This document shows positions 2,208-9,086 of a stretch of DNA of 64,000 nucleotides, piece by piece. The stretch is from Streptomyces sp. WM6378. GTDB lineage: Bacteria; Actinomycetota; Actinomycetes; Streptomycetales; Streptomycetaceae. Within the stretch, counting starts at the first letter, position 1. Each line of letters opens with the position of its first letter. The notes beneath the pieces are model-generated. The model saw nothing but the letters and a program-made list of their open reading frames with translations. It searched no databases and was not told the DNA's origin. The DNA is taken from contig NZ_LGDD01000292.1 in NCBI RefSeq assembly GCF_001279695.1, positions 1 to 64,000 on the forward strand. Direction: 5' to 3'. Made by a program: the position numbers and the translations under genes.

Positions 2208-2624
2208 GTGATTCTGCGGGGCGTGGAGATATCCGGGGGGCCTGTGGGGCGGCAGAGGCGGCGTGAATTCGCGGCGTTGCTGGGTGAGTTCCGTCGTGCG
2301 GCAGTGTTGGTGCCCGAGACCGAGGGTGGATGGTGGACCGCCGAGTGGGGTGGGATCCGGTGGATCTGCGCGTTCTCTGACGAGGCGGCGCTGGCCCGGT
2401 TCGCGATCGCACGCGGTGAAGGCGCCGAGGAGTGGGCCTACCAACGGGTGCTCGGAGCACGGCTGTTGGACGTCGCGGTGCCCGCGCTCGGGGTGCCGGC
2501 CGGGGTCGCGCTCGATGCGGGGAGCGCGGACGGTGTGGTGTTCCCGCCGGTCGCCGGGATCGTGCCGGAGGCCGTAGCGGTCGACGCCGGAGCGTATGCA
2601 ATTGAAGGGACGGGCGGGGCATGA
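2208..2624 (+). CDS. SseB-like family protein
   Basis: 138 residues, GTG start. The central region (EFAALLGEFRRAAVLVPETE, WWTAEWGGIRWICAFSDEAAL, then a C-terminal VALDAGSADGVVFPPV) resembles the SseB N-terminal domain used by many actinobacterial secretion-associated proteins. No signal peptide or membrane segment is present. Its stop overlaps the next gene by four bases, which suggests translational coupling and one transcript with the ESX-like and Rhs genes. It is probably an accessory or adaptor protein of the toxin locus. The exact job is unknown. Confidence 0.7.
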   Translation: MILRGVEISGGPVGRQRRREFAALLGEFRRAAVLVPETEGGWWTAEWGGIRWICAFSDEAALARFAIARGEGAEEWAYQRVLGARLLDVAVPALGVPAGVALDAGSADGVVFPPVAGIVPEAVAVDAGAYAIEGTGGA

Positions 2625-3268
2625 GCGGCGGGGGCGATGGGGATCTGCGGGTTCCGCCGGAGGCCATGGTGCTGATCACGCAGGGGATCAACGGCGCGCT
2701 GAGCGAGTTGAAGGAACTCGGGCTCATCGGGGAGGCCGGGATGGGCCGCGGGTTCGACTCGATGGCGATGACCGGGCTTGAGCTGGGTGACGACGGGCTG
2801 ACGGAGACGTTCAAGTCGTTCTGCGAGCGCTGGGAGTGGGGCGTGCGGGCGCTCGTGCAGGAGGGCAACGACTTCGCCCTGAAGGCGGGCCTGTCGGCCG
2901 GGATCATGTACGAGGAGGACCAGTACATCCAGGGCGGGTTCAAGGTCCTCGCGAACTCGGCGATGGGCAATCCGCATGCGACCGAGGACCAGGTCACCGG
3001 CATGTCCTGGGGTGACCTGGCTCGTAACAACATGTACGCGCACGCCGATTTCAGCCCCGAGTCCTTCCAGAAGGCCGACGCGGACATCTGGCAGAGCATG
3101 AAGGACGCCGGCCGGGACGTCACCGACAGCAAGCTGAATCCGCTCGTGCTGGGCATGGAGGCCTCCGGGCAGGGTGACGCACTGGCCCAGTGGCGGGACG
3201 ACGAGTTCGGCCCGTCGCCCGAGGAGCGGGCGAAACAGCAGGGCACGAACGGCGGCGGCCAGGGCTGA
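2621..3268 (+). CDS. Helical ESX/WXG-like protein of the toxin locus
   Basis: 215 residues, predicted mostly helical and soluble, with a Gly/Gln-rich tail. A W-E-W-G stretch (residues about 68-71) lies between two helical segments, loosely recalling WXG100 or ESX-like partner proteins, but the length is double that of a classical WXG100 protein. No named domain is recognised. It overlaps the SseB-like gene by four bases upstream and shares one base with the Rhs gene start downstream (TGATG). That tight coupling suggests a partner, chaperone or co-exported protein for the toxin. Confidence 0.7.
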   Translation: MSGGGDGDLRVPPEAMVLITQGINGALSELKELGLIGEAGMGRGFDSMAMTGLELGDDGLTETFKSFCERWEWGVRALVQEGNDFALKAGLSAGIMYEEDQYIQGGFKVLANSAMGNPHATEDQVTGMSWGDLARNNMYAHADFSPESFQKADADIWQSMKDAGRDVTDSKLNPLVLGMEASGQGDALAQWRDDEFGPSPEERAKQQGTNGGGQG

Positions 3269-6200
3269 TGGTGGATTTCGGGGGCTTGGTCGACGGCGGG
3301 AAGAACCTGCTGAACAAGGGCCTGGGCAAGGTCGAGGAGGGGGTCGACGCCGGCAAGAAGGCGGTCGGCAGCGCCGTCGATGAAGGCGCGCACGTCACGA
3401 GCGGTCTCCTGGACCGGGTCGGCGCGCACCACCTGGCCGACCAGGTGGACGACTTCGGTGACGCCGTCGCGGCCGAACTCGGCGCCCACGTTGATGAGAA
3501 GCAGCTCGGACAGACCGATCTGTTCAACGACCTCGTCCACGGCAACCCGAAGACGATCCGGGCCAACGCCAAGCATCTCGCCGACTTCGCGACCGCGTTC
3601 GGCAAGGTCGGCCAGGGCATGCGCCGGCTGGACTCCGGGAGCTGGAAGGGGCAGGCCGCCGACGCCTTCCGCGCCCAGTTCGCGATGCACCCCGCCAAGT
3701 GGGACGAGGCGTCCTTCGCCTGCCACGACGCGTCCGGCGCCCTCGGCCACTACGCCGGGACGGTCGAGTGGGCGCAGAGCAAGGCGCAGGAGGCCATCGA
3801 GCTGTACCGGGAGGGCGAGCAGGACTCCCAGAAGGCGGTCGAGGCGTACAACAAGCAGGTCGACGCCTACAACGACAAGGTACGCAGCCATCAGGATCCC
3901 GGGCCGCAGCCGGGCCCGTTCGCCGACCCGGGCCTCGCCAAACGGCAGCGGGCCCAGGAGGTCCTCGCCGAGGCGCGCCGCCAGCGCAACGGCGCCGCGG
4001 CCACGGCGCGCGGCATGGTGCAGGGAGCCCTGGCCGCCGCTCCGGCCGAACCGCCGCCGCTGTCCCGCCTGGGCCGCGATTACAAAGACCTCATGGCAGG
4101 CGGATCGATCGAGCTCGACCATGTCTTCACGGGCGTCATCAAGGGCGGCGCCGACATCCTGAACTTCGCCCGCAGCCTCAACCCCCAGGACCCCTACAAC
4201 CTCCTGCACCCGGCCGAGTACGAGAAGGGCGTGGCCACCACGCTCACCGGCCTCGTCTCCATGGACGCCCACCCTGAGCGGGCGATCAAGAGCGCGTGGA
4301 ACGACGCCAAGCATGACCCGGCCGAGTTCGGCGGTCGTCTGCTGGACAACCTTGCCGATCCCGAGGCGTTCGCGGCGTCCGGAGTGAGGACCGCGGCCGA
4401 GCTCGGGGTCAAGGAGGCCGCGAAGGAAGGCGCCGGCGCAGGGATCAGGGAGGGCTTCGAGGGCGCTGTCGACGACACGGCCCGCGGAGCCTATGAGCAC
4501 GAACCGCACGGCTCCAGCCGCACCGAGAATGAGATGGAGTGCGTCGAGGACCCGGTTGACGTGGCCACCGGCCGGATGCTGCTGCCGCAGAAGGACCTCG
4601 CGCTGCCCGGTGCCCTGCCGTTCGTCTTCCGGCGCACCTTCGGATCGGCGTACCGCCTGGGCCGCTGGTTCGGGCCGAGCTGGGCGAGCTCGATCGACCA
4701 GCGCCTGGAGATCGACGCGGCAGGCGTGATCTTCGTCCGCGAGGACGGCAGCCTGCTGTCCTATCCGCACCCCGCGCCCGGCGTGCCCACGCTGCCCGCG
4801 CACGGTGGCTCCCGCTGGCCGCTGGACCGCGACGGCGACACGTACACCGTCACGGACCCGGGCACCGGCCTGACGCGGCACTTCGTGCTCCACAACGACG
4901 AGCTCGCCCTGCTGGACCAGCTCGACGACCGCAACGGCAACTGGATCACCTTCGAGTACGACGCCGAAGGCACCCCCACCGGGATCGCCCACCACGGCGG
5001 TTACCACCTGAAGCTCACCACGGCCGAGGGCCGGATCACCGCCCTGCACCTGGCGGGCGCGGCGCCGGACGGCAGCGACCAGCAAATCCTGTGCTACGGC
5101 TACACCGACGGCCATCTCACCGAGGTTCTCAACTCCTGTGGCCGCCCGCTGCGCTTCGGCTACGACGAGCACGCCCGCATCACGTCGTGGACGGACACCA
5201 ACGACAGCCACTTCGACTACGTCTACGACGACCGCCACCGCTGCGTGGCCCAGTCGGGTACCAACGGGCACATGAGTGCGCGGTTCGCCTACAGCGAGCC
5301 GGACCCGGCCGACGGCCTGCGGACGACGACCGTCACGAACGCGGCAGGCCACGACGAGCGCTATCTGATCAATGACCGCGAGCAGGTCGTCGGCCACATC
5401 GACGCGACCGGCGGGACGACACGCTTCGAGCTGGACCGCTACAACCGCCCGCTGTCCCGCACCGACCCGCTGGGGCACACGACCTGGTCGGCGTACGACG
5501 AGGCGGGCCGTCCCACGGAGGTCGTACGCCCCGACGGGCGCCGGACGACGATCGCCTACGACGAGGCGGGGCTGCCGGTCCGGGTGACCGGCGCCGACGG
5601 CCGGACCGTGCGTCAGACCTTCGACGAGCGCGGCAACCGCACCTCGGTCACCGACGCAGCCGGGGTGCGCACCGAGTTCACGTACGACGAGGCGGGCCAC
5701 CTCGCCGCGGTGGCGGACGGCCTCGGACACATCACCCGCATCCGGTGCGACCGTGCCGGGCTGCCGCTCGACATCACCGACCCGCTGGGCGCGGTCACCC
5801 GCTACGAGCGGGACGCCTTCGGCCGGCCGATCGCGATCACCGACCCGCTGGGCTCGACCACGCGCCTGACGTGGACGGTGGAAGGCAGGCTCGCGCGCCG
5901 CACCGCCCCCGACGGCAGCGAGGAGTCCTGGACGTACGACGGCGAGGGCAACTGCACCAGCCACACCGACCCGCTGGGCGCCGTCTCCCGCTTTGAGTAC
6001 ACGGACTTCGACCTCCTGACGGCCCGCACTGGCCCGGACGGCGTGCGCTACGCCTTCGAACACGACGCCCACCTGCGCCTGACCAAAGTCGTCAACCCCC
6101 AGGGCCTGGCCTGGAGTTACGCCTACGACCCGGCCGGGCGGCTCATCGCGGAGACCGACTTCGACGGCCGCACGCTGACCTATGCCTACGACGCGGCGGG

Positions 6201-8064
6201 CCGCCTGGCCGCGCGCACCAACGGGCTCGGCGAAACGATCCGGTACGAGCGCAATGAGCTCGGCCAGACGGTCCGCAAGGACGTCGAGGGCTCGGTCACC
6301 ACCTTCGCGTACGACATCTTCGACCAGCTCGCCCAGGCGAGCGGCCCCGACGCGACCGTGATGCTGCTCCGGGACCGGCACGGCCGGGTGAGGTCGGAGA
6401 CGGTCAACGGCCGTGAACTGTCGTACTCCTACGATGAGTTGGGGCGCCGAAACGGGCGGAAGACGCCGGGCGGCTCGGCCAGTTCCTGGACGTACGACCC
6501 GGCGGGCAACCGCACCGAGCTGACCACTTCCGGCCGGACGGTGTCGTTCGCGCACGACGCAGCCGGGCGGGAGCTGATCCGCCGCTTCGGGGAAACGATC
6601 ACCCTGGCCCACGCCTTCGACCCGCTGGGCCGCCTCACGGACCTGGCGGTGACCGGAGCGCGGGGCGAATCCATCCAGCGCCGTGCCTACCACTACCGCG
6701 CCGACGGAAACCCGACCGGCGTGGACGACCAGCTCTCCGGCTCGCGCCGCTTCGACCTGGACGCGGCGGGCCGGGTGACGGCGGTCCGGGCGGGGGACTG
6801 GTCGGAGCGGTACGCCTACGACGCGGCGGGCAACCAGACGGAGGCGTCCTGGCCCGCTGCCCACCCGGGCCAGGACGCCCTGGGCGCCCGCGCGTACACG
6901 GGCACCCGAATAACCCGGGCGGGCTCGGTCCGCTACGAACACGACGCCCAGGGCCGCGTCACCCTGCGCCAGAAGCAGCGCCTCTCTCGCAAGCCGGACA
7001 CCTGGCGGTACACGTGGGACCCGGAAGACCGCCTGACCTCGGTCGTCACCCCCGACGGCACGGTCTGGCGCTACCGCTACGACCCGCTGGGCCGCCGCAT
7101 CGCGAAGGAGCGGATGGCGGGCGAGGCGGTGGCGGAGCGGGTGTCGTTCACGTGGGACGGCACGACGCTGTGCGAACAGACGACCACGTCGTCCGCATCC
7201 CCGGCGGCGGTCTCCCTGACCTGGGACCACGCGGGCCTGCGCCCGATCGCTCAGACCGAACGAATATCGTCCCCGGACCTGCCCGTCGGCTCGATCGACG
7301 AACGCTTCTTCGCGATAGTCACCGACCTGATCGGCACCCCGAGCGAGCTGGTGGACGAGCAGGGCGAAATAGCCTGGCGCACCCGCTCGACGCTGTGGGG
7401 CACGACCACCTGGAACACAGACGCCCGCGCGTACACCCCGCTCCGCTTCCCGGGCCAGTACTTCGACCCGGAGACGGGGCTGCATTACAACTGCTTTCGG
7501 TATTACGACCCGGAATCGGCGCGCTATTTCTCGCCTGATCCACTGGGGCTGGTGGCGGCGCCGAACTCCGTAGCTTACGTTCCGACCCCCCATGTCAGTG
7601 CAGACCCGCTGGGGCTATTTGGGTGCCCGGACGAAGAGCACCTCTTCCGAGGGACGACGCGTGGCTATGACGCGAGCAGCGGAACGCAGGCATCTGGTTT
7701 TACGCCCACGTCTACAGATCCAGGAGTGGCGGCTGTTTTCGCCAGGCACTCGGAGCAGTTCGGAGATGCTGTAGTCCAGCTGATCCCTCGGAGCGCGCTG
7801 GAAGGGATTCCGCTGGAGCCAGGTTTCATACGAGCCGAAGCGGAAGTTGCAGTTGGTCTGCCGGCGTCAGAACTCGCCCAGCGGGCCAGTGTCGAGATAC
7901 CTGTGGGAGCCGCTCACGACATCCTTTCCCAGATGGGTATCCATGTGCCGAAGGTGCACGGATATCAGGGGATCAGTGACGCCCTGGGGTTCGACGTCCC
8001 GAAACTATCACCAGAACAGATCAAGCATTTTGTAGCGGAGGCATACAAGCATGGCGGCGGATAA
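3268..8064 (+). CDS. WXG-Rhs polymorphic toxin with ADP-ribosyltransferase-like tip
   Basis: 1598 residues, starting at the ATG that overlaps the previous stop. The N-terminal 290 or so residues are helical with a W-K-G motif at about residue 126, typical of actinobacterial type VII-exported toxins. A DUF6531-type entry (DPVDVATGRMLL, about residue 429) leads into many YD/Rhs repeats up to about 1400. The Rhs core end (YFSPDPLGL, then DPLGLFG at about 1450) marks where the toxin tip begins. The tip, about 146 residues, carries FRGT, TSTDP and EAEV in that order, the layout of R-S-E ADP-ribosyltransferases. GC content falls within the tip. It is probably exported and releases the tip into competitor cells; export route and activity are inferred. 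Confidence 0.85.
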   Translation: MVDFGGLVDGGKNLLNKGLGKVEEGVDAGKKAVGSAVDEGAHVTSGLLDRVGAHHLADQVDDFGDAVAAELGAHVDEKQLGQTDLFNDLVHGNPKTIRANAKHLADFATAFGKVGQGMRRLDSGSWKGQAADAFRAQFAMHPAKWDEASFACHDASGALGHYAGTVEWAQSKAQEAIELYREGEQDSQKAVEAYNKQVDAYNDKVRSHQDPGPQPGPFADPGLAKRQRAQEVLAEARRQRNGAAATARGMVQGALAAAPAEPPPLSRLGRDYKDLMAGGSIELDHVFTGVIKGGADILNFARSLNPQDPYNLLHPAEYEKGVATTLTGLVSMDAHPERAIKSAWNDAKHDPAEFGGRLLDNLADPEAFAASGVRTAAELGVKEAAKEGAGAGIREGFEGAVDDTARGAYEHEPHGSSRTENEMECVEDPVDVATGRMLLPQKDLALPGALPFVFRRTFGSAYRLGRWFGPSWASSIDQRLEIDAAGVIFVREDGSLLSYPHPAPGVPTLPAHGGSRWPLDRDGDTYTVTDPGTGLTRHFVLHNDELALLDQLDDRNGNWITFEYDAEGTPTGIAHHGGYHLKLTTAEGRITALHLAGAAPDGSDQQILCYGYTDGHLTEVLNSCGRPLRFGYDEHARITSWTDTNDSHFDYVYDDRHRCVAQSGTNGHMSARFAYSEPDPADGLRTTTVTNAAGHDERYLINDREQVVGHIDATGGTTRFELDRYNRPLSRTDPLGHTTWSAYDEAGRPTEVVRPDGRRTTIAYDEAGLPVRVTGADGRTVRQTFDERGNRTSVTDAAGVRTEFTYDEAGHLAAVADGLGHITRIRCDRAGLPLDITDPLGAVTRYERDAFGRPIAITDPLGSTTRLTWTVEGRLARRTAPDGSEESWTYDGEGNCTSHTDPLGAVSRFEYTDFDLLTARTGPDGVRYAFEHDAHLRLTKVVNPQGLAWSYAYDPAGRLIAETDFDGRTLTYAYDAAGRLAARTNGLGETIRYERNELGQTVRKDVEGSVTTFAYDIFDQLAQASGPDATVMLLRDRHGRVRSETVNGRELSYSYDELGRRNGRKTPGGSASSWTYDPAGNRTELTTSGRTVSFAHDAAGRELIRRFGETITLAHAFDPLGRLTDLAVTGARGESIQRRAYHYRADGNPTGVDDQLSGSRRFDLDAAGRVTAVRAGDWSERYAYDAAGNQTEASWPAAHPGQDALGARAYTGTRITRAGSVRYEHDAQGRVTLRQKQRLSRKPDTWRYTWDPEDRLTSVVTPDGTVWRYRYDPLGRRIAKERMAGEAVAERVSFTWDGTTLCEQTTTSSASPAAVSLTWDHAGLRPIAQTERISSPDLPVGSIDERFFAIVTDLIGTPSELVDEQGEIAWRTRSTLWGTTTWNTDARAYTPLRFPGQYFDPETGLHYNCFRYYDPESARYFSPDPLGLVAAPNSVAYVPTPHVSADPLGLFGCPDEEHLFRGTTRGYDASSGTQASGFTPTSTDPGVAAVFARHSEQFGDAVVQLIPRSALEGIPLEPGFIRAEAEVAVGLPASELAQRASVEIPVGAAHDILSQMGIHVPKVHGYQGISDALGFDVPKLSPEQIKHFVAEAYKHGGG

Positions 8065-8338
8065 CAGACTGCAAATTTATTCAGTGGAGGAGTCGAGCGG
8101 GGATTTCGCCGTCTGCATTGCGCGATGCGTGGGCGGAGTGGTGCGAACCGGGCAGAATTTCGCTATGGAGACGGCGTCGGAGCCTGTTGATTTCGAGCAT
8201 GGCGTCACGTTGACCGCTATTGATCGGTATGGCCGGAGCGTGGATTTCTTCGATCCGCCCCACGCCGCGAAGGTCTACCTGTCCGGCCCGGGGGCTTCGG
8301 TGCTGGAGCCCGGGATGATCCTTGCCGCGCGTGGCTGA
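8051..8338 (+). CDS. Putative immunity protein, EF-Tu-domain-2-like
   Basis: 95 residues. It begins 14 bases before the Rhs stop in another frame, the usual arrangement of a cognate immunity gene. The sequence is rich in alternating hydrophobic residues, suggesting a small beta-barrel. Its pattern (CIARCVGGVVRTGQNF, then LTAIDRYGRSVDFF and SVLEPGMILAARG) resembles domain 2 of translational GTPases such as EF-Tu, which ends with an ERGMVLA-type turn. That likeness is my own reading and is unverified. Its GC content is lower than that of the core genes, like the toxin tip. Confidence 0.7.
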   Translation: MAADNRLQIYSVEESSGDFAVCIARCVGGVVRTGQNFAMETASEPVDFEHGVTLTAIDRYGRSVDFFDPPHAAKVYLSGPGASVLEPGMILAARG

Positions 8339-8777: not shown

Positions 8778-9086
8778 ATGGCGGGACAGAAGATCCGCAT
8801 CCGGCTCAAGGCCTACGACCACGAGGTCATCGACTCCTCGGCGAAGAAGATCGTCGAGACGGTGACCCGCACTGGTGCGTCGGTCGCAGGCCCGGTGCCG
8901 CTGCCCACTGAGAAGAACGTGTACTGCGTCATCAAGTCGCCGCACAAGTACAAGGACTCTCGCGAGCACTTCGAGATGCGCACGCACAAGCGCCTCATCG
9001 ACATCCTCGACCCCACGCCGAAGACGGTTGACTCGCTGATGCGCCTCGACCTCCCGGCCGGTGTCGACATCGAGATCAAGCTCTGA
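8778..9086 (+). CDS. rpsJ: Ribosomal protein S10
   Basis: 102 residues of full family length, opening [20 protein letters not shown] and containing the conserved THKRLIDI and the [12 protein letters not shown] end. It is a component of the 30S head and, in other bacteria, the NusE transcription antitermination factor. It is the first gene of the S10 operon, preceded by the long structured leader. rplC follows 14 bases downstream. Confidence 0.99.

Follow-up and report, generated by a model that had tools for sequence, protein, structure and literature searches.

The stretch of DNA analysed here, called the window, comprises 64,000 nucleotides (nt) of the 9.49 Mb genome of Streptomyces sp. WM6378 (contig NZ_LGDD01000292.1). 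The subject is a pair of overlapping genes within it, one encoding an Rhs/YD-repeat toxin with a C-terminal tip and the other a small protein of 95 amino acids (aa), its candidate immunity protein (Table 1). In addition to the T7SS_signal domain, Pfam found DUF6531, RHS repeats and a C-terminal Rhs core in the toxin, and the 147-aa tip follows the core. Because the toxin bears a T7SS_signal domain, it is presumably secreted by the type VII route, and it is probably antibacterial. The open reading frame (ORF) of the small protein starts inside the tip, with a GGAGG sequence 9 nt ahead of its ATG, and overlaps the toxin ORF by 14 nt. An overlap with the toxin stop had been noticed in an earlier reading of the DNA from its letters alone (the sequence-only reading) and was seen again here. 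The small ORF stands alone and is not part of a translational GTPase, and its family is single-copy in this genome.

Table 1. Coordinates of the features discussed (window positions unless a locus is named).
Feature	Position	Strand	Basis or remark
Small gene 5' of the Rhs gene, first	2208-2624		
Small gene 5' of the Rhs gene, second	2621-3268		
Rhs/YD-repeat toxin, 1624 aa	3190..8064	+	counted from putative GTG start
T7SS_signal domain PF21725, toxin residues 48-288	3331..4053	+	Pfam E 2.3e-95
Toxin tip, 147 aa	7621..8064	+	predicted ADP-ribosyltransferase-like fold; stop codon 8062-8064
Tip Arg10, candidate NAD-binding Arg	7648..7650	+	same in 35/35 aligned rows
Tip Ser31 of T-S-[TS]-D, candidate catalytic	7711..7713	+	same in 35/35 rows
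Tip Glu73-x-Glu75, candidate catalytic	7837..7845	+	both Glu same in 35/35 rows
GGAGG Shine-Dalgarno of immunity gene, within toxin tip	8037..8041	+	sequence
Immunity candidate, 95 aa, EF-Tu domain-2-like barrel	8051..8338	+	
Fused-barrel loci L024-L027, L029, L030, L032, L035-L037, L039, L041-L047	e.g. L030:5986-6750		

The tip matched no Pfam family. Its predicted fold is tentatively ADP-ribosyltransferase (ART)-like, and the Arg, Ser and Glu set of the R-S-E class (Tox-ART-RSE) is present as R10, S31, E73 and E75, which do not vary in an alignment that includes some near-duplicates. Catalytic roles for these residues, and catalysis by the tip, are presumed. The product of the small gene was predicted to be all beta, with the fold of a domain-2 beta-barrel (predicted model only). 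The sequence-only reading had likened it to the small barrel of translational GTPase domain 2 and had proposed structure prediction of the protein alone as a check; the model gave this barrel, in agreement with the profile kinship to EF-Tu described below. The VLEPGMILA turn, singled out in the same reading as EF-Tu-like, corresponds to a terminal E-x-G-[MQ]-[IV] turn common to both proteins. As a candidate family, Imm-ADP-RGHD, the all-alpha ADP-ribosylglycohydrolase immunity of Tox-ART-RSE, was ruled out, the barrel being 95 aa, all beta and without such a Pfam match. The definition of that family was taken from the polymorphic-toxin survey PMC3482391 (here and below, papers are cited from excerpts of their open-access text).

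The tip and the barrel gene go together. The tip was found in 16 of 392 Streptomyces genomes, whole in 14 and as a remnant in 2, and in all 16 a barrel match lay at most 14 nt from the tip match and in the same orientation. The barrel family was found in 60 of the 392 genomes, 44 of them without a tip match. Among seven barrel-bearing genomes of other Streptomycetaceae genera, the tip stood upstream of the barrel in three (L162, L163, L164) and did not stand there in the other four; together with a genome of another actinobacterial family (G671, locus L191) having the tip and then the barrel, this gives four pairs outside Streptomyces. The pair of L163 is placed behind a different carrier, the sequence before the tip reading ...TTPVLVHNTN..., which we take to be a HINT-type pretoxin ending. 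A distant tip match, of the tip sequence only, also occurred in Amycolatopsis. In a set of 65 barrel loci (36 from contigs and 29 from genome searches, the sets overlapping, e.g. L018 and L050), a whole tip lay just upstream in 14, a remnant in 7 and none in 44, and at least 18 of these 44 have the barrel fused to another domain. A barrel gene that is translationally coupled to the tip, and accompanies it in several genera and on more than one carrier, bears the mark of a toxin-immunity cassette.

Other settings of the barrel were also seen. In 18 of the 36 contig loci it forms the N-terminal part of a protein of about 250-275 aa with no tip just upstream; three of these fused barrels and a longer fusion, L181, gave no Pfam match. 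Distant barrel matches in L165, L166 and L167 start about 35 nt (in L177, 26 nt) downstream of a transposase frame, presumably IS256-like. In L028 and L031 a barrel gene is preceded, about 270 nt upstream, by an Rhs protein whose tip is another one (IYRTPKG..., which may be HYD1-like). Ribosomal protein genes begin at 8778 in the window, with rpsJ there, 3' of the barrel gene; the host tuf gene is on a separate contig (C359), and in L013 and L038 the barrel gene has tuf on one side and rpsJ on the other. Of the two small genes 5' of the Rhs gene, the first encodes a product with a weak SseB-like match. Among the 36 loci compared, homologues of both were present in L016, L018, L028, L033, L034 and L040; L020, L025, L031 and L042 have a homologue of the second gene. 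Their products are possibly export partners of the type VII-type toxin.

Pfam search of the window protein gave no match to PF03144 (GTP_EFTU_D2). Two of 72 relatives matched this family (best E 0.0056) without reaching the gathering cut-off, as did L172 alone among 10 distant relatives (17.6 bits vs a cut-off of 30.3). Identity between the barrel and EF-Tu domain 2 is only about 19%, with a profile alignment collinear from end to end. For comparison, the translational GTPases of 13 actinobacterial genomes supplied 80 domain-2-like stretches, which were clustered and sorted by hand into groups, some rows being duplicates; the group names are those we presume from sequence features. HHalign E-values apply to single comparisons, and column shuffles served as the null. 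The barrel profile A2 aligned with the EF-Tu/SelB group over 86 columns (residues 6-95) with a probability of 65.8%, an E-value of 5.7e-5 and a score of 30.5, reached by none of 150 shuffles (maximum 21.0). With EF-Tu alone the probability was 60% (0/150 shuffles) and with SelB alone 10% (1/150). For the TypA-like group the alignment covered residues 6-53 with a score of 24.9, also reached by no shuffle of 150, whereas shuffles reached the scores of EF-G (26/150), LepA (10/150), IF2 domain 4 (28/150) and RF3 (1/150). When 24 distant relatives were added to give a profile of 96 sequences, the EF-Tu/SelB group rose to 89.7% (E 1.9e-6, score 37.4, null maximum 17.9, 0/200 shuffles), with EF-Tu alone at 84%, SelB at 35% and the TypA-like group at 11% (0/200 for both of the latter); shuffles reached the scores of EF-G, LepA, IF2 domain 4 and RF3 in 35, 12, 23 and 2 of 200 cases. 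Among the groups tested, the strong full-length signal was thus restricted to EF-Tu/SelB.

Searches of the PDB with hmmsearch did not find EF-Tu when A1 or A2 was used. With a distant set of 25 sequences against all of the PDB, the top row was EF-Tu (E 0.034, residues 213-294), as were 10 of 17 rows, and with 90 sequences EF-Tu took the top five rows and 7 of 14 overall (best E 0.11). Neither of these wider searches is significant alone, and the same domain of EF-Tu ranks first in both. At the level of profiles, homology of the barrel to EF-Tu domain 2 is beyond chance.

The best explanation, to which we give a probability of about 45%, is immunity by binding via EF-Tu mimicry. Within it, the barrel would be the cognate immunity protein of the Rhs toxin and would descend from, or be remotely related to, EF-Tu domain 2. 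It would bind the ART-like tip directly and so neutralise the toxin, imitating the face of domain 2 on which the toxin docks or which it modifies; the toxin would then be drawn off EF-Tu by titration or have its active site blocked. TreTu ADP-ribosylates EF-Tu (PMC10469887; the cited title says at the P-loop) and CdiA-CT of NC101 contacts EF-Tu domain 2 (PMC9086364), which makes a target decoy plausible. If the barrel is one, the toxin may ADP-ribosylate the decoy itself, for example at the invariant R25. The sequence-only reading had proposed an immunity protein acting as a decoy, and this was partly supported: the predicted fold, the profile kinship, the gene pairing and the residue pattern and predicted fold of the tip are results, and toxin binding, an EF-Tu target and decoy action are inferred.

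The conserved residues weigh against mimicry. Eighteen conserved positions, taken from tip-paired immunities (23 rows, 21 distinct), were mapped by profile alignment onto the host EF-Tu L002, which is identical at five (I9, R25, G29, I57, G79), similar at six (L7, R32, L54, Y60, V75, L85) and different at seven (E13, C22, C26, G34, D68, H71, K74). The positions keeping the fold are common to both proteins, and most candidate contact residues are not. For this reason the probability of mimicry was set no higher. Its specific form, in which a captured EF-Tu domain 2 is the decoy and EF-Tu is what the ART toxin attacks or uses for docking, is a somewhat less likely, tentative possibility, and weight equal to that of this form is due to a domain-2 barrel co-opted as a plain scaffold, a lid or plug over the NAD cleft of the tip that imitates no target. 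With such a lid, any protein or nucleic acid could be the substrate that the toxin modifies, or its activity could stop at NAD hydrolysis. In its favour, the polar residues conserved in tip-paired immunity proteins differ for the most part from those of EF-Tu, active-site occlusion is typical of type VI secretion immunity proteins (PMC13324451), and an Rhs toxin with an ART fold is known whose sole activity is NAD(P) hydrolysis (PMC13285283). A plain lid leaves unexplained why the full-length signal should be confined to EF-Tu/SelB. Unlikely is an action via RNA, the barrel holding the end of tRNA or another RNA like the domain-2 face of EF-Tu and shielding, or competing for, the RNA substrate of ADP-ribosylation by the tip: the invariant Arg, Ser and Glu-x-Glu of the tip form what we take to be the pattern of protein arginine ARTs, whereas Tpt1 uses an R-H-R-R set. 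That the small protein is a passenger or a type VII accessory following the toxin by chance is very improbable, as the many barrels away from the tip, some of them fused, are outweighed by the unfailing proximity in tip-bearing genomes and by the second carrier.

An immunity protein is usually regarded as a binder of its toxin, with a fold that tells little of the target. In this case a named candidate is indicated by the fold together with the profile kinship, so that the target of a toxin could be guessed from its antidote. Two unannotated families are also linked, recurring in Streptomycetaceae and paired once beyond them. Among the matches listed from open-access PubMed Central (titles, abstract starts and passages), no paper described an EF-Tu-like immunity protein, in line with the earlier remark that none was known from a described polymorphic-toxin pair. 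The first 300,000 of the 357,715 characters of PMC3482391 contain none of the terms 'EF-Tu', 'elongation factor', 'translation factor', 'mimic' and 'decoy'.

Among known systems, PF0907 (1xe1, 4pgo) and Pbp11 (7anu) of Pyrococcus differ in being archaeal, with no toxin link found in this analysis. The barrel resembles EF-Tu domain 2 (PF03144) in fold, collinear alignment, Gly turns and the terminal turn, and its invariant R25 aligns with the arginine of the G-R-[IV]-E-R-G strand; it differs in standing alone, in its low identity and sub-threshold Pfam score, and in having a conserved set of its own (E13, C22, C26, D68, H71, K74). TreTu is an Rhs toxin that ADP-ribosylates EF-Tu, and TriTu is its immunity protein. 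No kinship of our tip to TreTu was seen in sequence: the tip profile A3 matched no PDB chain at E <= 10, although the PDB includes the TreTu chain 8s2n. TriTu reportedly acts as a lid. In fold it is reported to resemble KreA (PMC12487901). CdiA-CT/CdiI of NC101 is similar in that a polymorphic toxin touches EF-Tu domain 2, and different in that the toxin is a BECR-fold tRNase and the immunity protein is listed as all-helical (PMC9086364). ImmD of colicin D shares the idea of an immunity protein imitating the toxin substrate (PMC9086364), but imitates tRNA and not a protein; a decoy as proposed here, if true, would be a protein counterpart of tRNA-mimicking immunity.
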